Shown here in pieces: positions 4,259 to 19,616 of a DNA stretch of 20,821 nt. The notes beneath the pieces were generated by a model. The model was not told the origin of the DNA, ran no database searches, and was given only the letters and a program-made list of their open reading frames with translations. Within the stretch, counting starts at the first letter, position 1, and every line of letters starts with the position of its first letter. Source of the DNA: a virus; IMG/VR virus record IMGVR_UViG_3300045778_000051, positions 1 through 20,821 of that record; one strand, written 5' to 3'. A program made the translations under genes and the position numbers.

Positions 4259-4510
4259 ATGGCTGCTATCTGCTCAGAGTGTCATAGGTTCCGGTTAGAC
4301 GGCAGGAATATGTGCAAGTGCGGGGAGATCAAGCATATATATACGATGATTAGCTTAAATCTTCGTTGTACATGGTGCTTTAAGTTGTTTACGTGGAAGG
4401 TACGAGAGTTGAATAGGATGCCGGATGGTATCCGTAGGTGCTGCACAAACTCATGTGCTGCAAAGTTAAGGCACTGGGAAGAGGAGAGGAAAAATGAGCG
4501 AACTTCATGA
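4259..4510 (+). CDS. Small protein with two zinc-ribbon half-sites
   Basis: An 83-residue basic protein. An N-terminal CSEC...CKCG set (residues 5-21) and a second set, CTWC...CC...SC (about 37-66), suggest two small zinc-bound knuckles. The C-terminus is a charged helix. It overlaps the next gene by 17 bases. The family is not recognised; nucleic-acid binding is a reasonable inference from the zinc knuckles and basic charge. Confidence 0.68.
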   Translation: MAAICSECHRFRLDGRNMCKCGEIKHIYTMISLNLRCTWCFKLFTWKVRELNRMPDGIRRCCTNSCAAKLRHWEEERKNERTS

Positions 4511-4892
4511 ATGGTGCAAGGAACATCGGATTGTAGTATCACCGCAAGTTAAACGTGCGGCTGATTTTCTTGAGAGCAAAGGATACGAGTTTCTGTTAGA
4601 CTTTGGGTACGAGAATGCGGAGCAGAAGGCAAAGGAACTGTTCAACTTTAACGCAGTTGAACCTAGTCGTAAGACGTTGAACGGTATGGTACTGCGGATC
4701 ATGCGCGGTAAGGGTTGGATGACTCCTTGGGCGATACAAGCTAGTCTTAAAGTAGCAACAGCAGTCTACGTTTGCGATTCGTCCGTGAAGAGCAGGATTC
4801 GTGATCTTCGACTTCCAGAGTATGGGTGTCATTTGGTTGATAAGCGCAGGATTGTAGACTCTACGGCCTATGAGTACAAACTTATTAGGTGA
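4494..4892 (+). CDS. Winged-helix-like phage protein
   Basis: A 132-residue protein preceded by GAGGAGAGGAAAA, a strong SD site. Residues about 63-132 have the pattern of a winged-helix DNA-binding fold: a helix ending in MRGKGWMTPW, a second helix with a conserved-looking VKSRIRDLR, then a strand-turn-strand wing rich in basic residues. Phage replication or regulatory accessory genes often have this arrangement. I infer DNA binding; no partner or target can be named. Confidence 0.75.
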   Translation: MSELHEWCKEHRIVVSPQVKRAADFLESKGYEFLLDFGYENAEQKAKELFNFNAVEPSRKTLNGMVLRIMRGKGWMTPWAIQASLKVATAVYVCDSSVKSRIRDLRLPEYGCHLVDKRRIVDSTAYEYKLIR

Positions 4893-15971: not shown

Positions 15972-16622
15972 GTGAAAGCGAAGACGAACAGCAGTGAACA
16001 GCAGATGGTTGTTCAAATCAAGCCTCCAAAGTTTCAAATTGGAGTTTTTCACATCTATGGCGTAGCCCCTCTAGTCATCAACAAGTTCCCACAAAAAGCA
16101 TTGGAAGAGATGGAAGCTCGGCAACGCGCTGGCAGTCAAGCAAAGAAGGGCGCGAAGCGAGAATCCAAGGATTTCGATAGCCTATACGAAGGCGCAAAGC
16201 ATATCAGCCGCGAAGGATGGTGCGGTCTACCTGCGTCTGCTTTTCGCAATGCGATGATCTCGGCTTGCCGCCTTGTAAACTTCAAAATGACACTTGGAAA
16301 GCTAAGTGTTTTTATTGAAGCAGATGGTTTTGACCGCGATGAGGGTACACCTCTTGTTCGTATTGTTGAGGGCGAGCCAAGGCCAGTGAAGATGGCTGTC
16401 CGAAACGCAACAGGCGTATGCGACATTCGTATTCGTCCGATGTGGGATGAATGGAAGGCAGTTCTCCGTATTCGTTTCGACGCTGACATTTTCAGCCTTA
16501 CCGATGTGACGAATCTCCTTATGCGCGTAGGAGAACAGGTAGGACTATGTGAGGGTCGTCCTGATTCCAAGTCTTCTGCTGGTATGGGTTGGGGATTGTT
16601 TAAGATTGAGGAGGCGAAATAA
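15972..16622 (+). CDS. Conserved-looking phage protein of unknown function
   Basis: A 216-residue protein starting at GTG with only a weak GGA-type SD; an in-frame ATG at 16005 is an alternative. Notable stretches are APLVINKFPQKALEEM, EGWCGLPASAFRNAMISACR, VRNATGVCDIRIRPMW and, near the end, GRPDSKSSAGMGWGLFKI. These look strongly constrained. I recall similar sequences as hypothetical proteins in unrelated tailed phages but cannot attach a function. It overlaps the next gene by TAATG, so the two are probably made together. The region may be a compact alpha/beta domain. Confidence 0.8.
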   Translation: MKAKTNSSEQQMVVQIKPPKFQIGVFHIYGVAPLVINKFPQKALEEMEARQRAGSQAKKGAKRESKDFDSLYEGAKHISREGWCGLPASAFRNAMISACRLVNFKMTLGKLSVFIEADGFDRDEGTPLVRIVEGEPRPVKMAVRNATGVCDIRIRPMWDEWKAVLRIRFDADIFSLTDVTNLLMRVGEQVGLCEGRPDSKSSAGMGWGLFKIEEAK

Positions 16623-17056
16623 TGGCAACAGAAGCGATTATTTCAGAACTCCGAACAATCGCTGCGAAGAATGACGGGCTGCTGAAACCAGAAGACGTGG
16701 TGGAATCAGCCCGTCCCATAAATTCTCCGCTGCATACTCGGTTCACATGGGACGATACAGAAGCGGCAAATCAGTATCGTCTACAACAAGCGAGACAATT
16801 GATTCGCACAACAATTCAGTACATCGAAGTGGATGGGAAAGATCAATCATTTCGTGTATTTTGTAGCCTTACTCCAGATCGTGAAAATGATGGTGGAGGG
16901 TACAGAGAAACCGTTGCAGTTCTTTCCAATCGGCAGTACAAGGCACAACTTTTATCAGACGCGCAGGAGGATATGCGTCGTTTTGAGGAAAGATATTCAC
17001 GGTTGAAAGAGTTGTCGTTGGTAATCAAGGAAATTCGTAAAGCTCTGGCTGAGTAA
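16622..17056 (+). CDS. Unknown partner of the preceding gene
   Basis: A 144-residue protein whose ATG overlaps the previous stop (TAATG) with GAGGCGA upstream. Motif-like stretches are LLKPEDVVESARPINSPLHTRFTWDDTEAANQYRLQQARQLIR in the N-terminal half (positions about 20-62), a strand pair ending SLTPDRENDGGGYRE, and a C-terminal coiled-coil-like helix. This layout is familiar from phage genomes, usually next to the type of gene upstream here (from memory, unverified). The GG-periodic noncoding tract begins immediately downstream. Function unknown. Confidence 0.8.
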   Translation: MATEAIISELRTIAAKNDGLLKPEDVVESARPINSPLHTRFTWDDTEAANQYRLQQARQLIRTTIQYIEVDGKDQSFRVFCSLTPDRENDGGGYRETVAVLSNRQYKAQLLSDAQEDMRRFEERYSRLKELSLVIKEIRKALAE

Positions 17057-17063
17057 GCGAGAG

Positions 17064-17341
17064 AGTAGGTTCTGGTGCGGCAGGTATGGTTGGAATGGGC
17101 GGTTGTGTTGAGTATGGCTGTGTTTGGAATCGCAGGTACGGTCAGGCTCGCATTGGAGTGGCGAGGCGGGGAAACGCAGGTAAGGAGTGACGAGGAACGC
17201 AAAGGTTTGTCTAGGACATGAACGGCAGGTCGCGTTAGTTTAGGATGGACAGTTGTGGAACGATGAGGACGGTAGGTTCGGGCACGGTGTAGTAACGCAG
17301 GCGTGGCATGGCGGGGCGTCGAGGGGATAGTTTTGGATGGG
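17064..17341 (+). repeat. G-rich noncoding tract with GG at 5- or 10-base intervals
   Basis: Within the 415-base gap between 17057 and 17471, this 278-base tract holds more than forty GG doublets and not a single CC on the + strand. Spacing is locally exact: GG at 17135, 17140, 17145, 17155, 17160 and 17165; at 17184, 17194, 17204, 17214 and 17224; and at 17300, 17305 and 17310, with phase shifts between runs. The bases between GGs vary, so it is a patterned rather than a tandem repeat. It ends abruptly before a CC and the terminator. It lies in the 3' untranslated part of the 15796-17056 unit. No reading frame of credible composition covers it. Confidence 0.8.
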
Positions 17342-17390
17342 TCCGTCAATGAGTGTAAACGAAAGGTGCTAATGATTTAAGACCAAAGGG

Positions 17391-17421
17391 CGGCGGTCTT
17401 CGGATCGCCGTTTATTTTTTT
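17391..17421 (+). terminator. Rho-independent terminator with UUCG tetraloop
   Basis: CGGCGGTC (17391-17398) pairs with GATCGCCG (17403-17410), one wobble pair, closed by a TTCG loop and followed by TTTATTTTTTT (17411-17421). It ends the unit that contains the zinc ribbon, the two unknown genes and the GG-periodic tract. Confidence 0.92.
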
Positions 17422-17422
17422 C

Positions 17423-17451
17423 TTGACATACGAATGTTTTTCCTTTACGAT
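17423..17451 (+). promoter_or_regulatory. Promoter for the portal gene
   Basis: TTGACA at 17423-17428, a 17-base spacer and TACGAT at 17446-17451. It lies immediately after the terminator, so the portal unit is transcribed independently of what precedes it. The predicted start near 17458 gives a short leader of about 14 bases before the ATG at 17472. Confidence 0.72.
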
Positions 17452-17471: not shown

Positions 17472-19616
17472 ATGCGACACGTACCGGGAGGAAAGCGATG
17501 CGGTGTGCCTTCTAAACTTGAAACCGTAAGGTGGCAGGTGCCTAACTGGGAGGCATCTGCGAGTGAAAAGATCGGCTGGATTGAAGAGTGTATTTCAGAA
17601 GGTGAGGGTTATCTATCTGGCTCCTCGGCTTATAGGAATCTCAACAGAAATCTGCGTGTGTTTGATGGAGTTTTTAACGATAAAACAAAAAGTACGCTAG
17701 TCACAAATCAGTTAAAATACAACATTCGGAAATTCTGCGAAACCCTTGCGGAAGTACGTGAAATTGCGGGGTTTAGCTCAGACGTACCTGCCTATAAAGC
17801 AATGGCAGAGATGCTTACAAAGGTAAGCAAATGTGTTTATTTAGAGTCAGATTTTCCCTACCAAATCCTAAAAGTTTTGCAGTACGCAACAGTTTGCGGC
17901 ATTGGATATTTATGGCCTAAAGTTCGTCCGACAGAGTACGGATTTGGACCAAGAGAAATGACATTTGATGCGCTAGGGCTATTAGATGTAGTTCCAGTCC
18001 AGATACCTGCTTGGTCAAACGATATTCAAGATTGTTATGCTTGCACGGTTTATGATTATATGCCCATTGCAGAGGCGAGTGCGAAATTTCCTCTATTCCA
18101 AGGCCAACTTCAAACAGTTGGAAGAAATAATTACAAAACTTTAATTCAGGCACAGCGGCAGGATTTTGCTGCTACGTTTCGTTATGGAATGGTTGGGGAT
18201 GTACAGAGCCGGAGTTTTGGAAACCTGTACACAGAGATAAGATACACATTTATTAGAGACATACGGATCAACACTACGGGAAAAGAGATGCAGATGGGTG
18301 ATCCGGGAACGTCCTGGTTCTATAAAGTCCCGTCTATGGGACAGCCTATTTTTGGAGGGATGAGGGATGGAAAACCATACAGTCGTCCAGCGATGCCTGA
18401 AGATTGTAGAATCTACCCTAACCTACGGCTCATCATTACGTCTTCAGGACTGGACAGGCCGATGTATGACGGTACTTCCTTCGATTGGGACTCCAAAATA
18501 CCAGTCATTCAGTATACAGTGGATGATTGGGCATGGGAACCGCTAGGACGGTCATTAGTAGGGGATGTCGCGTCAATTGAGAACACGATTAGGAAGCACG
18601 AAAGGCTGATGGATCAGGTTCTTACGGCAGGAATGAATCCTCCAATGGGGTATGATTTGGATACCAACGGTGGAGCGAAGATTGAGCATTTTGATATTTT
18701 TGAACCTGATGTAAGGCTAGGACTTGCAGGTGGAGAGCCGACAAAGACATTCCAATCGCTGTTACCTGATTCAGTGAGAGTGACACAAATAAATGAAACG
18801 TACCTTAAATACTTGGGTGATAAAGAGTTAGCTCAGCTTGGATTGAATGATGTTGGGAACCTTTCCAACATGAAAATGAATATCGCCAACGACACAGCAG
18901 ATAAAATGCTGGAATCTATCGGTCCTATCGCTAAGGGAATTGCGATGAGGATAGAAAAAGCCAATAAGCGCGTAGGAGAGAGGATGAAAACTCTTATTCC
19001 TCAATGGTTTGACGCTGCAAGGCTTATTGAATATGTAGGACCGGACAGCATAGCGAAGGAAATGTTTGACTACAATCCTGACGATATGGTTCCTAGCCAT
19101 CTGCCAGATGAATTATTAAGTGGTCAATTCCCTACAACGAAGTCGATGTACGACCGTCTGACCAGAGCGAAGTTTTTTGCGAACAAACTTCGTCTTGTCA
19201 CTGTTCCGAATACGCTACTCAGGATCACGGCTATGCAGCGTCAGATGATGATGCTGCAATTAAAGCGCAGCGGAGCGCCTTTAAGTTGGTCTACTGTGAT
19301 GAAAACAATCGACATAGCGAACTGGGGAGATTCACCGGGATCGACTGAAAAGGAAAAATACTTCAACGAGGAAACAGAATTGCAGGTCATGGCGATTATT
19401 GCTAAGGCTAAGGCTTTCATGAAGTTGAAGGAAATGGGGATTGATCCGTCTGTATTGGAAGGTGGAGAACAGGGTGGTAAGGGCGGTAAAGGAGGCGGCA
19501 AAGGACCAGCAGGACAGCACGCGGGGGGACGGCCACCTTCGGGGCAGGCGTCACCAAAATTGGCCTCCAAAGGGGGAGCAGGTGGAACACCCAGGACGGT
19601 CGTAAAAGAATCATAG
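17472..19616 (+). CDS. Portal protein
   Basis: A protein of up to 714 residues. It has a portal-like alpha/beta core and a central stretch typical of portal proteins: PLGRSLVGDVASIENTIRKH followed by DQVLTAGMNPPMGYD. A long helical region after about 430 contains ELAQLGLNDVGNLSNMKMNIANDTADKML. The extreme C-terminus (about 650-714) is a Gly/Lys-rich disordered tail. It would form the ring through which DNA enters the head. The start is ambiguous: ATG 17472 follows CTAAGG with no spacing, and GTG 17505 is 13 bases after GGGAGG; that SD instead fits an out-of-frame ATG at 17498. The family (podovirus-like versus other) is uncertain. Confidence 0.8.
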   Translation: MRHVPGGKRCGVPSKLETVRWQVPNWEASASEKIGWIEECISEGEGYLSGSSAYRNLNRNLRVFDGVFNDKTKSTLVTNQLKYNIRKFCETLAEVREIAGFSSDVPAYKAMAEMLTKVSKCVYLESDFPYQILKVLQYATVCGIGYLWPKVRPTEYGFGPREMTFDALGLLDVVPVQIPAWSNDIQDCYACTVYDYMPIAEASAKFPLFQGQLQTVGRNNYKTLIQAQRQDFAATFRYGMVGDVQSRSFGNLYTEIRYTFIRDIRINTTGKEMQMGDPGTSWFYKVPSMGQPIFGGMRDGKPYSRPAMPEDCRIYPNLRLIITSSGLDRPMYDGTSFDWDSKIPVIQYTVDDWAWEPLGRSLVGDVASIENTIRKHERLMDQVLTAGMNPPMGYDLDTNGGAKIEHFDIFEPDVRLGLAGGEPTKTFQSLLPDSVRVTQINETYLKYLGDKELAQLGLNDVGNLSNMKMNIANDTADKMLESIGPIAKGIAMRIEKANKRVGERMKTLIPQWFDAARLIEYVGPDSIAKEMFDYNPDDMVPSHLPDELLSGQFPTTKSMYDRLTRAKFFANKLRLVTVPNTLLRITAMQRQMMMLQLKRSGAPLSWSTVMKTIDIANWGDSPGSTEKEKYFNEETELQVMAIIAKAKAFMKLKEMGIDPSVLEGGEQGGKGGKGGGKGPAGQHAGGRPPSGQASPKLASKGGAGGTPRTVVKES

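Follow-up and report, generated by a model that had tools for sequence, protein, structure and literature searches.

What is the noncoding DNA in which GG doublets recur at nearly regular distances, between two small genes and the portal gene of the virus IMGVR_UViG_3300045778_000051? The window (the whole stretch of DNA analyzed, positions 1–20,821 of that record) was first annotated with such a tract at 17064–17341, described as having over forty GG doublets, no CC, and a GG spacing apparently under selection without any fixed repeat. By direct count, these 278 bases contain 120 G and 38 C, with 48 GG and 0 CC. At 43% G, the number of GG doublets is unremarkable (48 seen vs. about 51 expected); the absence of CC is unusual (P = 0.0036). 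The runs of GG at exact 5-base steps do exist (17135/17140/17145, 17155/17160/17165, and 17300/17305/17310), as does the run from 17184 to 17224 in exact steps of 10. Compared with 5000 dinucleotide-preserving shuffles of the tract, GG pairs are in excess at lag 5 (15 vs. 7.9, P = 0.008), at lag 10 (20 vs. 7.8, P < 0.0002, with 0 of 5000 shuffles as high), and at lag 24 (16 vs. 7.4, P = 0.0006), and their sum over multiples of 5 is 81 vs. 45.5 (P < 0.0002). Lags of 7, 12, 17, and 21 are rarer than in the shuffles. Shuffled sequence, the comparison proposed with the initial annotation, thus fails to reproduce the pattern. The peak of GG power lies near 4.85–4.9 nt rather than 5 nt because the 5-nt steps are broken by 4-nt steps. 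A search of Rfam with the tract gave no match, and no DNA similarity to it was found in phage records.

The gene at 15972–16622 (+ strand, 216 aa, phrog_4652) is assigned as vipr, coding for a RAMP-family protein, by profile match and predicted fold. A profile of 54 homologs matches the PDB entry 36pp_D, "SUSP1 Vipr protein" (E = 4.3e-5), and, when run on the SUSP1 genome, it also detects Vipr there (ORF 28477–29079, E = 4e-8); as a cross-check, the SUSP1 locus is flanked on both sides by GGYNN runs. The profile is required, and a single-sequence search with the window protein does not reach Vipr. The predicted structure (pLDDT 86.9) has its best match in Csm3/Cas7-type subunits of CRISPR complexes (E 3e-4, probability 1.00, TM about 0.4). 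In the C-terminal stretch GRPDSKxSAGMGWGLF, the G and R/S residues are invariant or nearly so in the 54 homologs; from its position, the stretch would be the glycine-rich loop (G-loop). The adjoining gene (16622–17056, + strand, 144 aa, phrog_15946) is probably vap, for the vipr accessory protein. Among the loci examined, 84 contain a phrog_15946 homolog vs. 88 with vipr. The predicted structure of its product (AF2, pLDDT 91.8) finds no match in the PDB. Neither product has a match in Pfam, and PADLOC gives none for the 15972 protein. Both genes are intact open frames in the window.

VIPR (Viral Interference Programmable Repeat) is a CRISPR-like phage system described in a 2026 preprint from the Doudna laboratory (PMC13142463). 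In SUSP1, it comprises Vipr, a vap gene, and vrRNAs made of GGY/NN pentamers; the NN pairs of the vrRNA recognize DNA, each pair leaving one target base unread, usually the wobble base of a codon, and the RNP that is formed represses DNA targets without a PAM (PMC13142463). VIPR occurs also in a Pseudomonas fulva prophage and has been proposed as a forerunner of CRISPR (PMC13142463). A minimal phage locus of this kind has a vap gene, a place probably taken here by the adjoining phrog_15946 gene. By sequence and predicted fold, the membership of the locus in VIPR is well supported, and we hold, with a probability of about 0.92, that a phage-borne VIPR system has its vrRNA array in this tract and its protein genes in the upstream vipr and the probable vap. 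In the guide RNA, the GG pairs form the constant part, and the letters between them carry the information. Selection on GG spacing with no fixed repeat, as first proposed, is retained; the view of the intervening letters as unpatterned is not, since the information lies there. A G-rich RNA, one of the options offered at the start, is in line with the guide-RNA reading.

Parsed by dynamic programming, 75 non-redundant arrays from phages and prophages reveal the grammar of the tract. Steps are of 5 nt in 5174 cases, of 4 nt in 624, and of 6 nt in 20, and the mixture of 5-nt and 4-nt steps leads therefore to the period of 4.9. The pentamers are GG(C/T/A)NN, with GGY in the majority (about 82% of the units have C or T as their third letter), and most tetramers read GGCA. 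Cassettes are most often 44, 49, 54, or 59 nt long, lengths that follow 5k−1. Within cassettes, the NN letters are near-random (entropy 3.6–3.9 of 4 bits), with 3.2 bits in the last unit preceding the tetramer. VIPR guides are expected to have 9–16 alternating GGY/NN units; the cassettes have mostly 8–12, with 11 in cassette 5 of the window. The cassettes behave as modules: near-identical ones are common to the window and L046, next to others that are unrelated. In several arrays (L142–L150), the cassette ends are less variable, GGCA being preceded by the units AC or AA and followed by GA or AT; this points to short conserved handles.

In the window, periodicity, parse, and the 75 homologous arrays place the array, built of GG(Y)NN pentamers interrupted by 4-nt steps, at 17064–17354 (+ strand), so that it extends slightly beyond the end first given, 17341. 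Cassettes of about 8–12 pentamers are split by the 4-nt GGCA step. The parse gives, all on the + strand, a partial cassette ending in GGCA at the array start (17064–17082), cassette 1 (17083–17134, 52 nt, irregular steps), cassette 2 (17135–17178, 44 nt, NN = AC CA TC TT GT GA GG AA), cassette 3 (17179–17227, 49 nt, NN = AA GT GA AC AA TT TA CA AC), cassette 4 (17228–17299, 72 nt, irregular steps), and cassette 5 (17300–17354, NN = GT AT GG GT GG TA TT TG CC AA GT). Cassettes 1, 3, and 4 are found near-identical in L046. Further along the same strand, a terminator-like hairpin followed by a T run (17388–17413) is where the array transcript likely ends. The sigma-70-like promoter of the portal gene (17423–17451, + strand, a consensus match only) lies 3′ of the array and is separate from it. 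On the minus strand, an open frame of 168 aa (16843–17349) crosses the array in antisense; it arises merely because the complement is CC-rich, and gene-finding programs would be misled by this artefact.

Decoded with the rule of the preprint, cassette 5 gives codon positions 1 and 2 of V-M-G-V-G-Y-(F/L)-W-P-K-V, i.e., of the portal motif VMG[I/V]GYLWPKV. This motif is the best site in 36 of 36 portal homologs, in frame, with 17–19 of 20 letters exact (the frame number in L032 is shifted only because its alignment starts out of frame). With a one-base skip, the best match observed is 21/22 exact; skips of 0, 2, or 3 give 16. After shuffling of the unit order, cassette 5 attains at most 15/20 in portals (300 shuffles) and at most 19/22 in all loci, where 0 of 600 shuffles equal the observed 21/22. 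When G.T and U.G wobbles are allowed, VMG/VTG portals show no true mismatch, except for L029, L030, and L043 (one each). The portal match starts at the first unit after GGCA, which supports the GGCA phase break as a guide boundary. In the viral_contigs collection, the exact pattern of the first ten units had no match; with one Leu wobble allowed and the third base of the Trp codon fixed, three contigs match the whole motif, each in frame in a portal homolog. Judged by sequence only, the NN pairs of cassette 5 match the portal with one target base skipped, and as a guide the cassette would be directed at the portal gene of relatives and not at the phage's own.

The own portal has, as counterpart of the target, VCGIGYLWPKV (17892–17924, + strand), with 19 exact letters, 1 wobble, and 2 true mismatches of 22, both mismatches falling in the second unit of cassette 5. 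In L045, a derivative guide is present (AT GG GT GG TA TT TG GC AG, read by eye), with most NN letters kept and the third letters of GGY changed. The own portal of L045, VFGCGYLWAKV, has four mismatches to the window guide and three (counted by eye) to L045's own guide. L043, L044, and L046 possess vipr and arrays without the portal guide, together with VMG portals. In L033, the portal is VCG and vipr was not found in the 72.9-kb contig; L033 may be an escape variant or may have lost its array. Guide carriers with a changed own portal are the pattern expected if matching the own portal were incompatible with the guide. Because there are two carriers only, and a VCG portal without vipr in L033, this self-sparing is a correlation and not a proof. 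The balance tilts slightly toward a form of VIPR in which tail-less guides, delimited only by the 4-nt phase break, are used against the portal of close relatives, with guide and portal co-evolving. If that is true, a guide-and-escape pair exists within one phage lineage, at a DNA-packaging gene.

Targets for cassettes 1–4 were not found in the loci and collections searched. With cassette 2, 15 contigs match, about the chance estimate, 13 of them in the predicted codon frame; with cassette 3, two related viral contigs match, in the same glycosyltransferase-like gene, for about one expected by chance (the chance figures for collection scans are rough estimates). Cassette 3 matches KVETNFYHT exactly and in frame at L123 1999–2024 and L124 4234–4259, which may be chance. 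The comparison of 431 guides with the local loci gave no general excess of skip-1 matches over other skips; these loci contain few likely targets. A target test in the 5-nt register found nothing, as expected because, if the published rule holds, the true register is 3 nt. No target was found for a guide of UmaThurman, and the scans of the Bradyrhizobium genus and of the Roseococcus family were both at control level. When all guides are compared with the genes for Vipr, Vap, portal, and terminase, the one match that stands out is that of cassette 5 to the portal, with a single weaker match to vap. The L081 guide (1022) AA GA CG AC GC CT CA GA GG fits, in frame, the L062 vap (6711) at NERTALHAD, with 16/18 exact and one wobble; from this match, a VIPR-against-VIPR guide is possible.

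The arrays are linked to homologs of the 15972 gene and not to the portal. The portal promoter, before which the initial annotation placed the tract, does not belong to the feature. Among the portal homologs (L001–L039), the detector was passed only by those near-identical to the window, which also have a 15972-type gene upstream; by eye, L005 shows a short weak tract beside a 15972-like gene. Among the homologs of the 15972 gene (L040–L117), nearly all have a same-strand tract of period 4.9, often far stronger than that of the window; the exceptions are one weak opposite-strand stretch in L076/L080 and four loci without a call. The position of the array varies: it can follow vap, precede vipr, separate the two genes, or flank vap on both sides. 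It is present also in the cultured Mycobacterium phage Donkeykong and Gordonia phages ODay and UmaThurman, as well as in one assembled cyanophage, Cyanophage Cy-LDV1. Among bacteria, homologs occur in named genomes or MAGs such as those of Roseococcus, Bradyrhizobium lablabi, Rhodanobacteraceae, and a member of the Verrucomicrobia (a MAG), and the array is visible in 8 of 10 such loci. The presence of similar G-patterned stretches in other phages, mentioned in the initial annotation, is thus borne out by the 75 parsed arrays; related phages do carry the pattern, and the tracts adjoin homologs of the 15972 and 16622 genes. In Donkeykong, gp48 (L120 4438–4824) almost exactly overlies the vrRNA array (4453–4802) and is therefore probably a spurious protein call; the relatives of gp48 may be spurious calls as well.

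A feature of DNA or RNA other than a guide could be imagined, since GG at 5-nt spacing could give two-tier quadruplexes and the 10-nt spacing resembles one helical turn. However, over hundreds of bases the phase stays at 4.9 rather than 5.25, and the pattern keeps to one strand and goes together with a RAMP gene. The array length, the side of vipr, and the genome module all vary, RNA folding of the tract is ordinary (z = −1.06), and the portal match would be left unexplained. The quadruplex scaffold, the helically phased protein site, the packaging or replication signal, and the NGG decoy suggested at first all lose to the guide-RNA explanation; they are disfavored, with a probability close to nil. 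It is very improbable, too, that the VIPR array is real with a portal match of cassette 5 due to coincidence or to recombination with portal DNA. A single clear target among five cassettes, in an array that adjoins the portal, would fit such an origin; against it stand the order shuffles, the in-frame match, which falls on one conserved motif in every portal, and the all-guide comparison, in which portal motifs matching many unrelated guides equally well were not seen. Copied portal DNA cannot yield the match because it appears only after removal of GGY and with the one-base skip.

The array could also derive from VIPR and be a decaying relic, no longer working in this phage. Both Gs are present in only about 61% of the window units, compared with 70%–98% in most relatives, cassettes 1 and 4 are irregular, and most targets are not found. 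But vipr and vap have kept their frames, three cassettes have near-identical copies in L046, cassette 5 still has a perfect fit, wobbles included, to living portal sequences, and the L045 derivative preserves NN letters more than the third letters of GGY. We regard a relic as unlikely.

For a working VIPR array, the + strand would be transcribed up to the hairpin. Vipr would coat the RNA, each subunit covering roughly one pentamer, gripping its GG(Y) and leaving its two variable bases exposed, and these variable pairs would read DNA as NNx NNx NNx, the skipped base being here the codon wobble base. The GGCA step, which breaks the 5-nt register, probably marks the end of one guide and the start of the next. 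By analogy with the preprint, cassette 5 would repress the portal gene of a competitor and hinder DNA packaging, and the own portal would escape through its changed codons. We infer in this way transcription, processing, RNP assembly, repression, and a benefit in phage competition. For a branch of Vipr far from that of SUSP1, the case supports the 1-nt-skip code of VIPR by sequence evidence alone, and it offers a candidate natural VIPR target, a core virion gene in near relatives. The relation between guide ownership and mismatch in the own gene is a testable correlation. GG every ~4.9 nt with GGCA steps constitutes a simple signature by which further arrays can be found, among others in the Mycobacterium and Gordonia phages that are in culture.

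Leader RNAs bound by TRAP also contain a short motif repeated at about 5-nt spacing; they are not guides and have no decodable letters. The spacing is alike, and no TRAP gene was recognized. The repeats of Tweety gp54 (PMC2884959) were considered too and rejected, being a 12-bp coding repeat and unlike the array. With the Cas7/Csm3 backbone of class 1 CRISPR, the locus shares a predicted RAMP fold, a glycine-rich loop, and guide positions periodically unpaired, but the period is 5 nt and not 6 nt. CRISPR-Cas has direct repeats, contiguous spacers, and several cas genes, whereas the array has no repeat/spacer structure and the window has no other cas genes.

The likeness to VIPR is closer, with a phage-borne RAMP protein, a small second gene, and an adjoining noncoding GGY/NN pentamer RNA, the NN pairs of which appear to match DNA with the codon wobble base skipped, in putative targets of competing phages. 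In contrast with SUSP1, the Vipr of the window is only distantly similar and its vap is unrelated in obvious sequence. The SUSP1 vrRNAs are separate and have conserved leaders and tails. VIPR type II (SUSP1-like) is characterized by separate ~100-nt vrRNAs with a conserved structured 3′ tail; the window cassettes abut through GGCA with no tail between them, and the locus is therefore not filed as type II. The "staggered arrays with overlapping vrRNAs" mentioned in the preprint (fig. S18, PMC13142463) may be the form present in the window. A further apparent difference from the described systems lies in the candidate target, which here is the virion portal gene of close relatives.
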